DNA from: Deltaproteobacteria bacterium
GTDB taxonomy: Bacteria; Desulfobacterota; Binatia; UBA12015
DNA length: 43,593 bases
Direction: 5' to 3'
NCBI GenBank assembly: GCA_016874795.1
Contig: VGTG01000034.1
Span: forward strand, 1-43,593
How positions within the stretch are numbered: the stretch's first letter is position 1; every line of letters starts with the position of its first letter. Shown in pieces: positions 22,613 to 35,389 of this stretch. The position numbers and the translations under genes are program-made. The notes under the pieces are model-generated. The model had not been told where the DNA came from, ran no database searches, and saw nothing but the letters and a program-made list of their open reading frames with translations.

Positions 22613-23680
22613 TCACGGCGAAGGCAGGAGCGCGCATCGCGGGTCGACGTTGCAGTCGACGAGCCGAACCACTTCTGCGTCGGGCGGGTTCGTTTCGAGG
22701 AACCTCCCGATCCCCCGGGCATAGTACTTGCGCTCGAATGCGCCGGGCGAGAGCGGTGAGAAGTCGTACGTGACGACGCAGTCGCCCGCGCTGCAGAAGA
22801 GCTCGGCCAGCTCCGGTGGAACGAGCTCGTCGAGCTCCGGATCGACGCCGTACCGGTAGGTCGTCGACAGGATCCGGATCACGTCTTCCGCGTTGCCGGC
22901 GGAAAACTCCTGGCGGTGCACCTCACCCGGCGCGGGCGCGATCGGGAAGAGAATTCCGGGCTTGTCACCGTCCCGACCCGCCTTGAACGATCCATCGATG
23001 CGGATCAGCTCCGGCAGCGCGGGGACATCGCCGGCGAACGTCTCGAAGTCCTTCACCTCTTCGCCGCAGTAGAGCACGTCGCCGCTCCTCGCGTGCGCGA
23101 ACCAGTCGTCCGTGTCCTCGATCACCTCGCCGGCGACCTCGACACGGTCGTTGACGACGATGCAGGTCACCCCCTCGACGAGCTTCGTTTCATCCAAAAC
23201 CTCGATGACGATACGCTCTTCTCCGCCGGCGAATTCCCAATGGTGACCCGGCGCGAGCGGGAAGAACGGGTTCGGCGTCGTGAGGTCGGTGAAGTCGTCG
23301 TCGAAGTCGGCCGGGTCGAAGCCCGGGTCGTAGCGCGCTTCCCCGATCTCGCCGCAGAGGTCGCGGCGTGCAGCGTACTGCTCACGGCAGAGCGCCCGAG
23401 CCTCGACGCGCGCGGCCTCCGCTTCGTCGACGCACTCATTGCGCTCCTCGTCGTCGGAGACGTTGATGCAGACGGCCTTCGCCGTGAGGAAGTCTTCTCG
23501 CACCTCGAAGCGGCATGCGTCCAGCTGTGCAGCAGCGGTAGCCGAGCAGAAGCGCCCCTCGACGATCGCAGGAACCACTCCGGGAGCGAAGCCGACCGCG
23601 GCAGCGAGCGAACGTGTCGCCCAGCCCCTCACGTGTCCCCGGCAGCTCCGTCGAGTCGCGCCGTCCGGTGAATGTTGCAT
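22613..23680 (-). CDS. Secreted Cys-rich protein of unknown function
   Basis: I do not recognise a named family. The 355-residue product starts with an Arg-rich n-region and a hydrophobic stretch (AAAVGFAPGVVPAIV) that reads as a signal peptide. The segment at about 45-110 is alpha-helical with spaced cysteines (DACRFEVRED, AVCINV, NECVDEAEAA, ALCREQYAARRDLC), likely disulfide-linked. The C-terminal half, rich in beta-type sequence (HHWEFAGGEERIVIEVLD, GDVLYCGEEVKDFE), resembles uncharacterised extracellular domains. GGGGGGA eight bases before ATG 23680 is a strong ribosome site. Divergent from the DUF6502 gene across a region with a perfect palindrome. Confidence 0.75.
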   Translation of the reverse strand: MQHSPDGATRRSCRGHVRGWATRSLAAAVGFAPGVVPAIVEGRFCSATAAAQLDACRFEVREDFLTAKAVCINVSDDEERNECVDEAEAARVEARALCREQYAARRDLCGEIGEARYDPGFDPADFDDDFTDLTTPNPFFPLAPGHHWEFAGGEERIVIEVLDETKLVEGVTCIVVNDRVEVAGEVIEDTDDWFAHARSGDVLYCGEEVKDFETFAGDVPALPELIRIDGSFKAGRDGDKPGILFPIAPAPGEVHRQEFSAGNAEDVIRILSTTYRYGVDPELDELVPPELAELFCSAGDCVVTYDFSPLSPGAFERKYYARGIGRFLETNPPDAEVVRLVDCNVDPRCALLPSP

Positions 23681-23698
23681 CTCGTCCCCCCGATCTAT

Positions 23699-23718
23699 TT
23701 TGGCAAATATTTGCCAAA
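23699..23718. promoter_or_regulatory. Perfect 20-bp palindrome, candidate operator
   Basis: TTTGGCAAATATTTGCCAAA is a perfect inverted repeat of 20 bases and AT-rich in a GC-rich genome. It lies 19 bases upstream of the start codon of the leftward Cys-rich gene and 86 bases before the rightward DUF6502 gene, where a regulator could act on both. The downstream DUF6502 protein, which has an N-terminal helical part that looks DNA-binding, is the nearest candidate binder. Confidence 0.65.
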
Positions 23719-23803
23719 GACTAGATTCTGGGATCGAAATGCCAGATCATGGTAGCCGGGTCAACGTGAAAAACGACCTCGATCTCCCGCGGAGGCCCCG
23801 TCC

Positions 23804-24655
23804 ATGAGCGATTCGTCCGGACAGGCGAACCGTCGGGCCCTCGCGGCCGCGCTCGATCGGATCTTCCGCGCTCTGGCGAGGCTCTGCCTGCGGCACGGAC
23901 TCTCCTATGAAGCGACCGCCGAGATCGCGAAGCGCGCCTTTGTCGACACGGCGAGGCGCGAGTTCCGGATTCCGGGCCGCAAGCAGTCGGCCTCGCGAAT
24001 CGCGCTTCTCACCGGGCTCCACCGGAAGGACGTCGGCCGGATGATGAAGGCCGAGCAGCCGGCGGACCCGGTCGCCGAAGCGCGCGTCGCCTACGCCGCT
24101 CGCGTGATCGGCGGCTGGCGGCGGGACGAGACGTTTGCGGACCCGCGCGGCGGACCCGCGGCACTGCCCTTCGAAGGCGGCGCGTCGAGCTTCGTCGATC
24201 TCGTGAAGCGCCACGGTGGCCGCGACGTCCCGGGTCGAGCGGTGCTCGACGAGCTGACGCGCGTCGGCGCGGTATCCCGGCTTCGCGACGGCCGGATCAA
24301 GCTCGTCGCGCGCGCCTACGTACCTGCCGCTGCCTCGGTCGAGAGCCTGGCCATCCTCGGCAGCGACGTCGCCGATCTCATCGCGGCCATCGACCACAAC
24401 CTCTCGAGTGGTCCGGATGCGGGATTCTTCCAGCGCCGCGTCTCCTACGACGACATTCCTGCCGAGGCGGTCGACGAGCTTCACGCGCGCGTCCGGCGCG
24501 AGGGTCATTCCCTGCTCGAGCGGCTCGATCGCGTTTTCGCACGGCACGATCGCGACTCGAATCCGAAGTCGCAGGGAACCGGACGCAAGCGGGTCATGAC
24601 CGGCGTGTACTTCTTCGTCGAAGACGTCGAGCCGGACGAGGAGAAGAAACCGTGA
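23804..24655 (+). CDS. DUF6502 family protein, possible regulator
   Basis: A 283-residue soluble protein. The first 70 residues carry ARLCLRHGLSYEATAEIAKRAF, then SRIALLTGLHRKDVGRMM, a helix-turn-helix-like spacing that fits DUF6502 as I know it. The middle (GAVSRLRDGRIKLVARAY) looks like a winged part and the tail is acidic (YFFVEDVEPDEEKK). In other genomes DUF6502 is commonly next to a DUF5666 gene, as here. The stop overlaps the next start (GTGA), so the pair is coupled. ATG 23804 follows the palindrome at 23699-23718. Regulatory function is inferred. Confidence 0.75.
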   Translation: MSDSSGQANRRALAAALDRIFRALARLCLRHGLSYEATAEIAKRAFVDTARREFRIPGRKQSASRIALLTGLHRKDVGRMMKAEQPADPVAEARVAYAARVIGGWRRDETFADPRGGPAALPFEGGASSFVDLVKRHGGRDVPGRAVLDELTRVGAVSRLRDGRIKLVARAYVPAAASVESLAILGSDVADLIAAIDHNLSSGPDAGFFQRRVSYDDIPAEAVDELHARVRREGHSLLERLDRVFARHDRDSNPKSQGTGRKRVMTGVYFFVEDVEPDEEKKP

Positions 24656-25605
24656 TGATCGCGAAGAGCGCAAAGCGACACTCGACGCTCCGGCGTCTCC
24701 CGCTGCTCGCCGTCGCGGTGGGCTGCGGCTCGAATCTGAGCATGGGGGGCGGCATCGCCGGGACCTCCTCGGTGTCGGGGCCGATCTCGGGCTTCGGGAG
24801 CATCATCGTCGGTGGCGTCGAATTCGACACGGGCTCCGCCACGGTGACGATCGAAGGCAATCCCGCGGACGTTGCCGATCTACGCCTCGGAATGGTGGCG
24901 CTGGTGCGGGGTACGATCGAGCCGCGACGCGCCGCCGGCGTCGCCGAGACCGTTCGCGTCGATCACCTCGCTCGAGGACCGCTCGCGCTCGTCGATCCGG
25001 GTGCTGCGCGACTCTCGCTCCTCGGGCAGGAGATCGTCGCCGACGCGAGCACGGTCTTCGAGCCCGTTCCCTTCGCGGAGCTCGCGCCGGGCGACCGCGT
25101 CGCGGTCAGCGGCTTTCTCGGCGGCGATGGCCGCATCCGTGCCACGCGGATCGCGGCGCCCGAGGACGGAGAGATCGAGCTGACCGGCCTCGTCGCCGAT
25201 CTCGACCCGGCCGCGCTGACCTTCCGCATCGGGGGCCTCGTCGTCCAGTTCGCCGGCGCGGTCGTCGAGGGCGCGCCGAGCGGCGGCCTCGTGGACGAGC
25301 TTCTCGTCGAAGTGGAAGCGGAGGTTCCTCCGGCGAACGACGTCCTCACGGCGGTCGGCGTCGAGGTGTTCGATTCGTCGCTCGCCGAGGAAGGCGACGG
25401 CCTCGACGTCGAGGGCTTCGTCACGCGGGTCCCTTCGCCCGACGAGCTCGTGCTGAACGAGACGCAACCGGTCCGGCTCACGGCCGAGACGCGATTCGAA
25501 GGCGGCGATCGCGCCGATCTCGTCGTCGGCGCCCGGGTCGACGTCGAAGGTGTCGCCGGGGAGGGCGGACTTCTCATCGCACGAGAGGTCGAGTTCCTGC
25601 GGTAG
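24652..25605 (+). CDS. DUF5666 lipoprotein
   Basis: A 317-residue exported protein: a basic n-region, LLAVAVGCGS lipobox (Cys25), then several OB-like beta-rich repeats of the type GxVxGFGSIIVGGVEFDTGSA, LAPGDRVAVSGFLGGDGRIRA and ELTGLVADLDPAALTFRIGG that mark DUF5666. Its GTG start overlaps the DUF6502 stop. Function unknown; the coupling to DUF6502 says they work in one process at the cell envelope. Confidence 0.8.
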   Translation: MMIAKSAKRHSTLRRLPLLAVAVGCGSNLSMGGGIAGTSSVSGPISGFGSIIVGGVEFDTGSATVTIEGNPADVADLRLGMVALVRGTIEPRRAAGVAETVRVDHLARGPLALVDPGAARLSLLGQEIVADASTVFEPVPFAELAPGDRVAVSGFLGGDGRIRATRIAAPEDGEIELTGLVADLDPAALTFRIGGLVVQFAGAVVEGAPSGGLVDELLVEVEAEVPPANDVLTAVGVEVFDSSLAEEGDGLDVEGFVTRVPSPDELVLNETQPVRLTAETRFEGGDRADLVVGARVDVEGVAGEGGLLIAREVEFLR

Positions 25606-34525: not shown

Positions 34526-35389
34526 TCAAACCAGCTCGACCGGGTCTCCGACCGCGACCTCGCCGGCCGCCTCGACCGTCGCGTAGACGCCGAGGTTCTG
34601 GTTCGCATCGCGCACGATCGCGCGCAGCACCGTCGGATCGCCCGGCAGATCGTCCACGGCGCGCGTCGTCATGCTGCAGCGCATGGTCGGGATCGTCACG
34701 CCGATCGTGACGCCACCGACACGGACCTTCCGTCCGCACCACGCGGTCTCGACGAATCCGCTCGTCCCGCCCGTGGGCTCGACGAGGAAGTTCGGCCGGA
34801 AGCGAGCGCGCTCGAACCGCGCCGTCGGAGCGAGCGCGGAGAGCGCGCGTAGCGACGCCGTGGTCATCAGGTGCAGCGGAGCGAGATCGAAGTACGTCCC
34901 GAGTGGCGACGTGAACTCGAAGATCTCGGGCGGCACGACGGAGAAGTCCGGAAGCGGCTCGTCCGGCAGCCGGCCGAAGATCTGCCGCAGCTCCTTCTCG
35001 AAATCGGGATCGTCGGGCTGTCCGCGGCGATAGTGATCTCGGTCCTCCGCCGGCCGAAGCGAGCAGAGCTTGACGGCCCGTCCGACGAGCGCCGAGAGCC
35101 GCGCGTCGACGTCGGAGTCGCCGCTGCGCACGCTCGTCTCGTCCGGCAGCGTGATCGTCACGGGAGGCACGTGCGCGGCGCTCGGCTCCGCTTCGTACGA
35201 AGCGCGGCAGCGCATCAGGACCGGCATCTTCTTCGCGCCGCGGATCTCCGCCGCTGCTTCGTCGCGAAGAGCCCAGCCGCGGTCGCCCGGAATCCCGCGC
35301 TCGCCCACCTCCGCACGCTCGCGGCGCTCGCCCGCCATCGACTTGACGGGATAGCGCCAGATCTCCTTCACGTGTCCGACGACGGCCAT
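34526..35389 (-). CDS. MOSC domain protein
   Basis: A 287-residue protein with an N-terminal MOSC beta-barrel (IWRYPVKSMAGERR, GDRGWALRDE) and a C-terminal MOSC domain (RFRPNFLVEPTGGTSGFVE, TIPTMRCSMTTRA). The Cys in PTMRC corresponds to the conserved cysteine that binds molybdenum in mARC or YiiM-type enzymes; a molybdenum-sulfur reductase role is likely, substrate unknown. Convergent with the TetR remnant. Confidence 0.9.
   Translation of the reverse strand: MAVVGHVKEIWRYPVKSMAGERRERAEVGERGIPGDRGWALRDEAAAEIRGAKKMPVLMRCRASYEAEPSAAHVPPVTITLPDETSVRSGDSDVDARLSALVGRAVKLCSLRPAEDRDHYRRGQPDDPDFEKELRQIFGRLPDEPLPDFSVVPPEIFEFTSPLGTYFDLAPLHLMTTASLRALSALAPTARFERARFRPNFLVEPTGGTSGFVETAWCGRKVRVGGVTIGVTIPTMRCSMTTRAVDDLPGDPTVLRAIVRDANQNLGVYATVEAAGEVAVGDPVELV

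Follow-up and report, generated by a model that had tools for sequence, protein, structure and literature searches.

A probable new family of helix-turn-helix regulators, DUF6502, with a conserved candidate operator that occurs as a diverged pair between two divergent genes

The stretch of DNA analysed here, referred to as the window, is 43,593 nt in length and carries three genes arranged around one short intergenic region. A DUF6502 gene lies on the forward strand at 23804-24655, and its product matches Pfam PF20112 with 257.5 bits (cut-off 27), residues 11-274 being aligned to positions 2-264 of the 268 in the model. It is followed on the same strand by a DUF5666 gene, at 24652-25605 when read from its GTG, whose product matches PF18914 in three stretches with 111.1 bits (cut-off 27). 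Judging by its N-terminus, where Cys25 precedes GGGIAGTSS, this product is a lipoprotein; the cysteine is nearly invariant among 43 proteins encoded by downstream neighbours of DUF6502 genes. The DNA at the junction of the two genes is CCGTGATGATC, and because the reading frames overlap, the pair probably forms one operon. The original prediction had the pair coupled by GTGA; the overlap stands, and the GTGA itself is ambiguous, since a start at GTG 24652 (GTGA) and one at ATG 24655 (TGATG, 1-nt overlap) are equally possible. On the reverse strand, at 22613-23680, a divergent gene encodes a protein of 355 aa with 13 cysteines, which is probably secreted, as judged by eye from N-termini, and for which Pfam gives no family at E <=0.1 and NCBIfam none at E <=1. 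Between the divergent genes lies a perfect 20-bp palindrome, O1, TTTGGCAAATATTTGCCAAA, at 23699-23718, 18 nt upstream of the ATG of the Cys-rich gene and 85 nt upstream of that of the DUF6502 gene. The palindrome, the pair and the divergent Cys-rich gene are thus present as originally predicted. A second site, O2, TGGGATCGAAATGCCA, at 23729-23744, consists of one canonical and one variant half and is located 28 bp from O1, centre to centre.

Palindrome length was rejected as evidence: the window has 69% GC, and 32 of 100 first-order shuffles contained a perfect palindrome with a half-length of at least 10. O1 is the longest palindrome actually present in the window; the next, CGCTTCGTACGAAGCG at 35189-35204, is a perfect 16-bp palindrome that is unexceptional by length. 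As the length of O1 is so readily equalled in shuffles, the case for an operator rests on comparison. The O1 word is unique in the window at up to three mismatches (0 in 100 shuffles), its 18-bp core is unique in its own 6.27-Mb genome, and TGGSAWWWWWWTSCCA with one mismatch allowed is matched in that genome only at O1. The three other genomes of the genus lack this core even with two mismatches allowed, and matches to it occur in 9 of 148 genomes of the class, the exact one in its own genome only. The exact word was therefore rejected as a family signature; what is conserved is a dyad of which O1 is one member. An unremarkable length and an unconserved word are also what one would expect if the palindrome were a chance, RNA or mobile-element feature. 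A riboswitch or terminator was rejected, given that no Rfam family matches the window at gathering scores and no terminator-like site occurs in 23600-23900. A sigma-54 promoter reading of TTGGCA...TTGC was also dropped by eye, its GG-GC spacing being one base shorter than that of the sigma-54 consensus.

The comparison was built on 107 DUF6502 loci with at least 250 nt of upstream sequence. Scanning with two window-like peptide patterns supplied 77 of them, and searches of whole genomes the other 30; at 70% identity they fall into 70 clusters. A contig can occur in both sets, an overlap that the clustering (49 + 21 clusters) handles; the upstream statistics leave out L094 and L024, which have short flanks. 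In an unbiased count of all 5-mer inverted repeats with spacers of 0-12, TGGGA-N6-TCCCA ranks first, being found upstream of 35 of the 70 clusters, followed by TTGGG-N8-CCCAA in 29 and TTTGG-N10-CCAAA in 20, against 10 for the best dyad in the coding part and a maximum of 4 in 30 shuffles. With one mismatch allowed, the dyad is present in 42 of 70 clusters, O2 of the window being counted. These frequencies are those of a sample drawn mostly through two peptide patterns from window-like sequences, and not of the whole family. The canonical repeat is TTTGGGA-N6-TCCCAAA, and TTTGGGAATATATTCCCAAA is cited as operator DNA alongside O1 and O2. The DUF6502 loci with the dyad come from distantly related bacteria. 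The original prediction had proposed looking for the palindrome upstream of other DUF6502 genes: the identical word does not recur there, and at the level of the motif the dyad is found in about half of the DUF6502 clusters.

How the window relates to this dyad can be seen directly in O1, a variant of the form TTTGGCA-N6-TGCCAAA (core 23701-23716), which has the outer TTTGG-N10-CCAAA in register, with GGC replacing GGG. A matrix was made without the cluster of the window (L005, L006, L081), from sites in 34 of the remaining 69, and run over the whole 43.6-kb window; O1 came first with 19.5 bits and O2 second with 8.9 bits, the best score outside the two, frames shifted on O1 included, being -2.96. 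Thus a TGG(G/C)A-N6-T(G/C)CCA dyad upstream of the DUF6502 gene is present at both O1 and O2 by a matrix that owes nothing to the window. This independent ranking, together with the homologous boxes in a second genus described below and the Rfam and terminator results above, leaves a chance, RNA or mobile-element origin of the palindrome hardly credible.

The distribution of the dyad bears on which protein would bind it. Among the 69 rows of the DUF6502 tree, which leaves out L153, and at up to one mismatch, the 16-bp form accompanies 40 besides the window and the 15-bp form, TGGGA-N5-TCCCA, accompanies six; two rows have other spacings and 20 have no site. The spacing class tracks the protein tree: the 16-bp form requires 13 changes against 22.4 in shuffles, and the 15-bp form two against a shuffled mean of 5.9, with 0 of 500 shuffles as low in either case. 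The 15-bp form marks a subclade, five of its six rows forming one clade with a support of 100/100. Alignment A4 leaves out L127, L133, L153, L139 and L144 for stops or truncation, and L003, L004, L005, L011, L016, L019 and L022 as near copies or partial sequences. The labels of the tree include Pseudomonadota, Nitrospirota, Thermodesulfobacteriota, Myxococcota, Binatota and others. DUF6502 occurs in 74 plasmid records, of which four loci were read; those of Azospirillum lipoferum 4B (AZOLI_RS20800), with the site GTGGGAAAATTTCCCAC at its own DUF6502 operon, and Microvirga carry the 15-bp form, and two Rhizobium plasmid loci have no dyad upstream of DUF6502. In the latter (L250 and L252, on p42f and pR132501), the DUF6502-DUF5666 genes have flagellar hook genes on one side and a gene for a chemotaxis receptor on the other, and no operator was found. 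Phages gave no DUF6502 match.

DUF6502 was detected in 21 of 58 related genomes, at 78 named loci of the contig scan, and in at least 17 of 395 genomes of a phylum sample, where up to six candidates were scored per genome and DUF6502 was possibly missed in some. In this sample, 9 of the 17 DUF6502-bearing genomes have the strict 16-bp pattern, as do 30 of the 378 without detected DUF6502 (Fisher p 5e-6), the protein search and the operator scan being taken to cover the same 395 genomes from their equal numbers and handles; the reversed-pattern control occurs in 9 of 395. The genome of the window has two further DUF6502 genes: L032 (G000:C18:2215-3003) has no dyad in the 300 nt upstream, and L024 (G000:C37:125-919) has none in the 124 nt that its contig holds. 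The DUF6502 genes L012, L016 and L019 of the same genus likewise lack a dyad at up to one mismatch in 300 nt. L032, too, is followed by a DUF5666-type lipoprotein gene. About 150-280 nt upstream of such operator-less paralogues there are GC-rich hairpins with C-runs in the loop (L010 530-620, L012 1261-1340, L013 1265-1345, L025 1305-1385, L027 1275-1375, L032 1225-1320), three of which are more stably folded than almost every shuffle (z -3.0, -6.2, -3.3); the other three are not.

Sites in 30 genomes without detected DUF6502, and 20 tree rows with DUF6502 and no site, would fit a scheme in which the dyad belongs to another regulator that controls DUF6502-DUF5666, with DUF6502 itself doing something else. 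This is quite improbable in view of the spacing class that follows the DUF6502 tree, the enrichment of sites in genomes with DUF6502 and the fact that 23 of 42 scanned genomes hold just one strict site. DUF6502 additionally has a predicted helix-turn-helix with invariant basic residues: S64, R65, T70, G71, R74 and K75 are invariant in 30 DUF6502 proteins and lie within this element, and R65, T70, G71 and R74 are so across 98 sequences. The structural prediction that had been suggested as a check gave two monomer models (pLDDT 76 and 85.5), and the predicted structure has the helix-turn-helix.

The pairing of DUF6502 with a DUF5666-type lipoprotein gene is widespread. A lipoprotein/DUF5666-type profile, which was partly trained on the scored genes (37 of the neighbours), has its match no more than 300 nt downstream in 54 of 70 clusters, at a greater distance in two and nowhere in 14; as an independent check, Pfam finds DUF5666 in 32 of 43 selected neighbours. 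The pair is also annotated, with a 4-nt overlap, in Rhizobium etli, R. leguminosarum and Azospirillum.

A first candidate regulon emerges from the strict sites, of which 73 are found in 39 of 42 genomes that were chosen nearly always for an operator at a DUF6502 locus, against three for the reversed control. The DNA around sites was read in 40 regions, which contain 45 of them; some are near-duplicates from related genomes, several have no assignable gene and a few lie inside open reading frames. L191-L194, L205 and L227, inside open reading frames or with no plausible target, were set aside as probably chance. DUF5666 genes are preceded by further sites in seven regions, which come from five genomes; six regions (L211, L214, L215, L218, L220, L221) show no DUF6502 within the roughly 5 kb read, and L225 has DUF6502 behind the DUF5666 gene. 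Genes for proteins with 4-10 CxxCH motifs follow sites at L202, L203, L204, L210, L212, L216, L217 and L226; Pfam, applied to seven of these eight loci, gives cytochrome matches over the cut-off at six and only MopE repeats at L202. The multihaem c-type cytochromes of L210, L212, L217 and L226 share an NDLGM motif, and L202 and L203 carry MopE-type repeats. Sites also precede ferredoxin-flavoprotein genes (L213, L222, L223) and a DUF4382 lipoprotein gene (L206). In the genome of L112, a member of the Nitrospirota, three small genes that appear paralogous by eye (L196, L198, L199) each follow a copy of the operator.

The position of the dyad relative to promoter-like elements bears on the sign of regulation. 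TTGAC stands 16-20 nt upstream in 27 of 35 exact operators, against four on the mirror side, and a hexamer inside the operator matches TATAAT in at least four of six positions in 24 of 35. Autorepression classically places the operator on the -10 box of the repressor's own gene, and the in-phase TTGAC and the repeat over a TATAAT-like hexamer make it the best reading here. In 19 of 35, an in-frame ATG or GTG begins within 8 nt after the operator, often at 3 nt, which suggests that transcripts from these operator-overlapped promoters are leaderless.

In the window, the half-site has GGC instead of GGG, and by eye there is no strong -10 inside O1 or O2. The sole promoter-like match in 23600-23900 (shuffle mean 0.1) is TTGGCA-N16-TAGATT at 23700-23727, directed towards DUF6502, with its first hexamer inside O1; it is a consensus match only. 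On the opposite strand, TTGACC at 23759-23764, picked out by eye in the alignment with the second genus, could serve the Cys-rich gene as its -35; its TTGAC stands 20 nt before the core of O2, an offset shared by 6 of 35 reference operators.

Outside DUF6502 promoters, 19 of 26 extra sites lack TTGAC in phase, so a different mode of action is possible there. DUF6502 might then bind the operator and mainly activate, as HetR does, or activate the lipoprotein and cytochrome genes and repress its own. In-phase TTGAC is missing at all seven DUF5666 sites and in six of eight cytochrome regions, and the nearest fold match, HetR, is said to take part in activating heterocyst-specific genes (PMC4192349). 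The layout at the family's own genes, with the repeat covering a TATAAT-like hexamer in 24 of 35 and TTGAC in phase in 27 of 35, favours repression, and we consider activation in either form unlikely.

A second genus of the same family provides a direct comparison for the locus. In G011:C94, the three genes are identical in order to those of the window, and the alignment of the two intergenic regions scores 52, where the best of 500 shuffles reaches 32. This region keeps the TTGAC at the same offset to O2, the second box and a degenerate form of the first. Homologues of the Cys-rich gene occur in 11 of 58 genomes, its own included; in five others, no DUF6502 was present in the stretches of 9-14 kb around them. 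Thus far the set of three genes has been seen only in the window and in G011, two genera. Describing the locus as a three-gene envelope system was therefore too strong: the pair of DUF6502 and lipoprotein genes holds in 54 of 70 clusters, and the Cys-rich gene was found beside it in these two genera only. Control of both divergent sides by DUF6502 is plausible, given the divergent placement and the intergenic stretch conserved in the second genus.

DUF6502 is probably a new family of helix-turn-helix regulators, likely autorepressing, with a conserved operator that the window holds as a diverged pair. We infer that the protein is a dimeric autorepressor that binds the inverted repeat, in the window O1 and the weaker O2, and give this reading, in which binding by DUF6502 itself, dimerisation, the repressive sign, the releasing signal and control of the Cys-rich gene are all inferred, a probability of roughly 0.72. 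It draws on what the computation found: a conserved dyad that overlaps promoter-like elements and is associated with the protein tree, the conservation of the gene pair, and the further sites at DUF5666 and cytochrome genes. In this proposal, a DUF6502 dimer would bind TTTGGGA-N6-TCCCAAA, present in the window as the variants O1, with AATATT between its halves, and O2, 28 bp away. The repeat covers the putative -10 of the own promoter in most repeat-bearing relatives, where the dimer, once bound, would keep RNA polymerase out, and the genes for DUF6502 and its lipoprotein partner would remain autorepressed until some envelope or redox signal releases them. Located between DUF6502-DUF5666 and the Cys-rich gene, O1 and O2 would probably restrain both sides. 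The idea of a DNA-binding DUF6502 with its own operator, as originally put forward, gains from the dyad in 35 of 70 clusters, the link of spacing and tree and the predicted helix-turn-helix, and had missed the second site. Full-text literature searches returned no paper with 'DUF6502', 'HetR-like' or the operator words, and for DUF5666 no function was found in the literature read, where it is named only in table-like lists. For a multi-phylum family with no paper by name in the literature searched, the analysis yields a hypothesis of function, the exact DNA sequence that would be its target and a first set of candidate regulon genes, and it links DUF5666 lipoproteins to a dedicated regulator.

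Among known systems, HetR is treated here as what DUF6502 may work like, and not as its family. For both models, HetR-DNA complexes are the top PDB match in Foldseek (E 1.8e-3, probability 0.98; E 8.2e-3, 0.96), and neither has a PDB match at E 0.001 or better. The colinear alignment with HetR (PDB 4j00, 4izz, 4yrv, 3qod, 4hri) runs from the helix-turn-helix, which comes first, through the middle part to the C-terminal helical part, and HetR is described in terms of a DBD, flap and hood (PMC4649674). One look gave Z 7.1-8.3 over 201-211 residues (3qoe, Z 5.5 over 187) at an rmsd of about 10; another gave a VIA Z of 7.0-7.6 over 207-219 residues (about residues 11-274), again with an rmsd of about 10. 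However, TM-scores are 0.24-0.33 and the Z values are in the chance range, where 1zel, an unrelated winged helix, also reaches 7.1. About residues 87-171 of the model resemble the winged-helix domain of IclR-type and similar regulators (3mq0, 2g7u, 7cuo, 5h1a) with Z 5.8-6.2, but in that case the sub-domain alone aligns.

By sequence, homology to HetR was not established in profile, local or free-end comparisons. The window protein matches only PF20112 at E <=10 and neither HetR model, PF03574 or PF18460, both of which HetR itself matches; PF18460 was matched in no control genome, and for 98 DUF6502 members HetR homology was not established among the Pfam matches listed (25 of 41 families). 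The hhalign probability of DUF6502 against HetR is 0.12, with a template of two sequences that are 90% identical. A first DUF6502 profile found no HetR in the PDB at E <=10, a free-end profile test was null, and local sequence comparison gave no support. Global profile scores are z 3.3-3.7 for Anabaena HetR, a level reached by 0-2 of 400 shuffles and 1-7 of 252 ORF decoys; Fischerella HetR scores lower, z about 2.0-2.9 with the same shuffles. By contrast with this weak global signal, plasmids, phages and viral contigs yielded no further HetR sequences for the profile. None of the DUF6502 record titles and tree labels read here is cyanobacterial.

The two systems also have in common, on the present proposal, a GGG/CCC dyad as the target. 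HetR needs GGG-N5-CCC (PMC4192349), whereas DUF6502 sites are GGG-N8-CCC or GGG-N7-CCC, O1 has GGC/GCC, and DUF6502 adjoins a lipoprotein gene. It is a tentative and rather doubtful suggestion that DUF6502 represents a branch of a HetR superfamily outside the cyanobacteria, with the HetR fold, binding GGG/CCC dyads, regulating itself and controlling envelope lipoproteins and multihaem cytochromes. Should the resemblance prove genuine, the regulator that forms patterns in cyanobacteria would have relatives in other phyla, where it may also have originated, and HetR would be related, as a specialised form, to an old regulator of envelope or redox functions.
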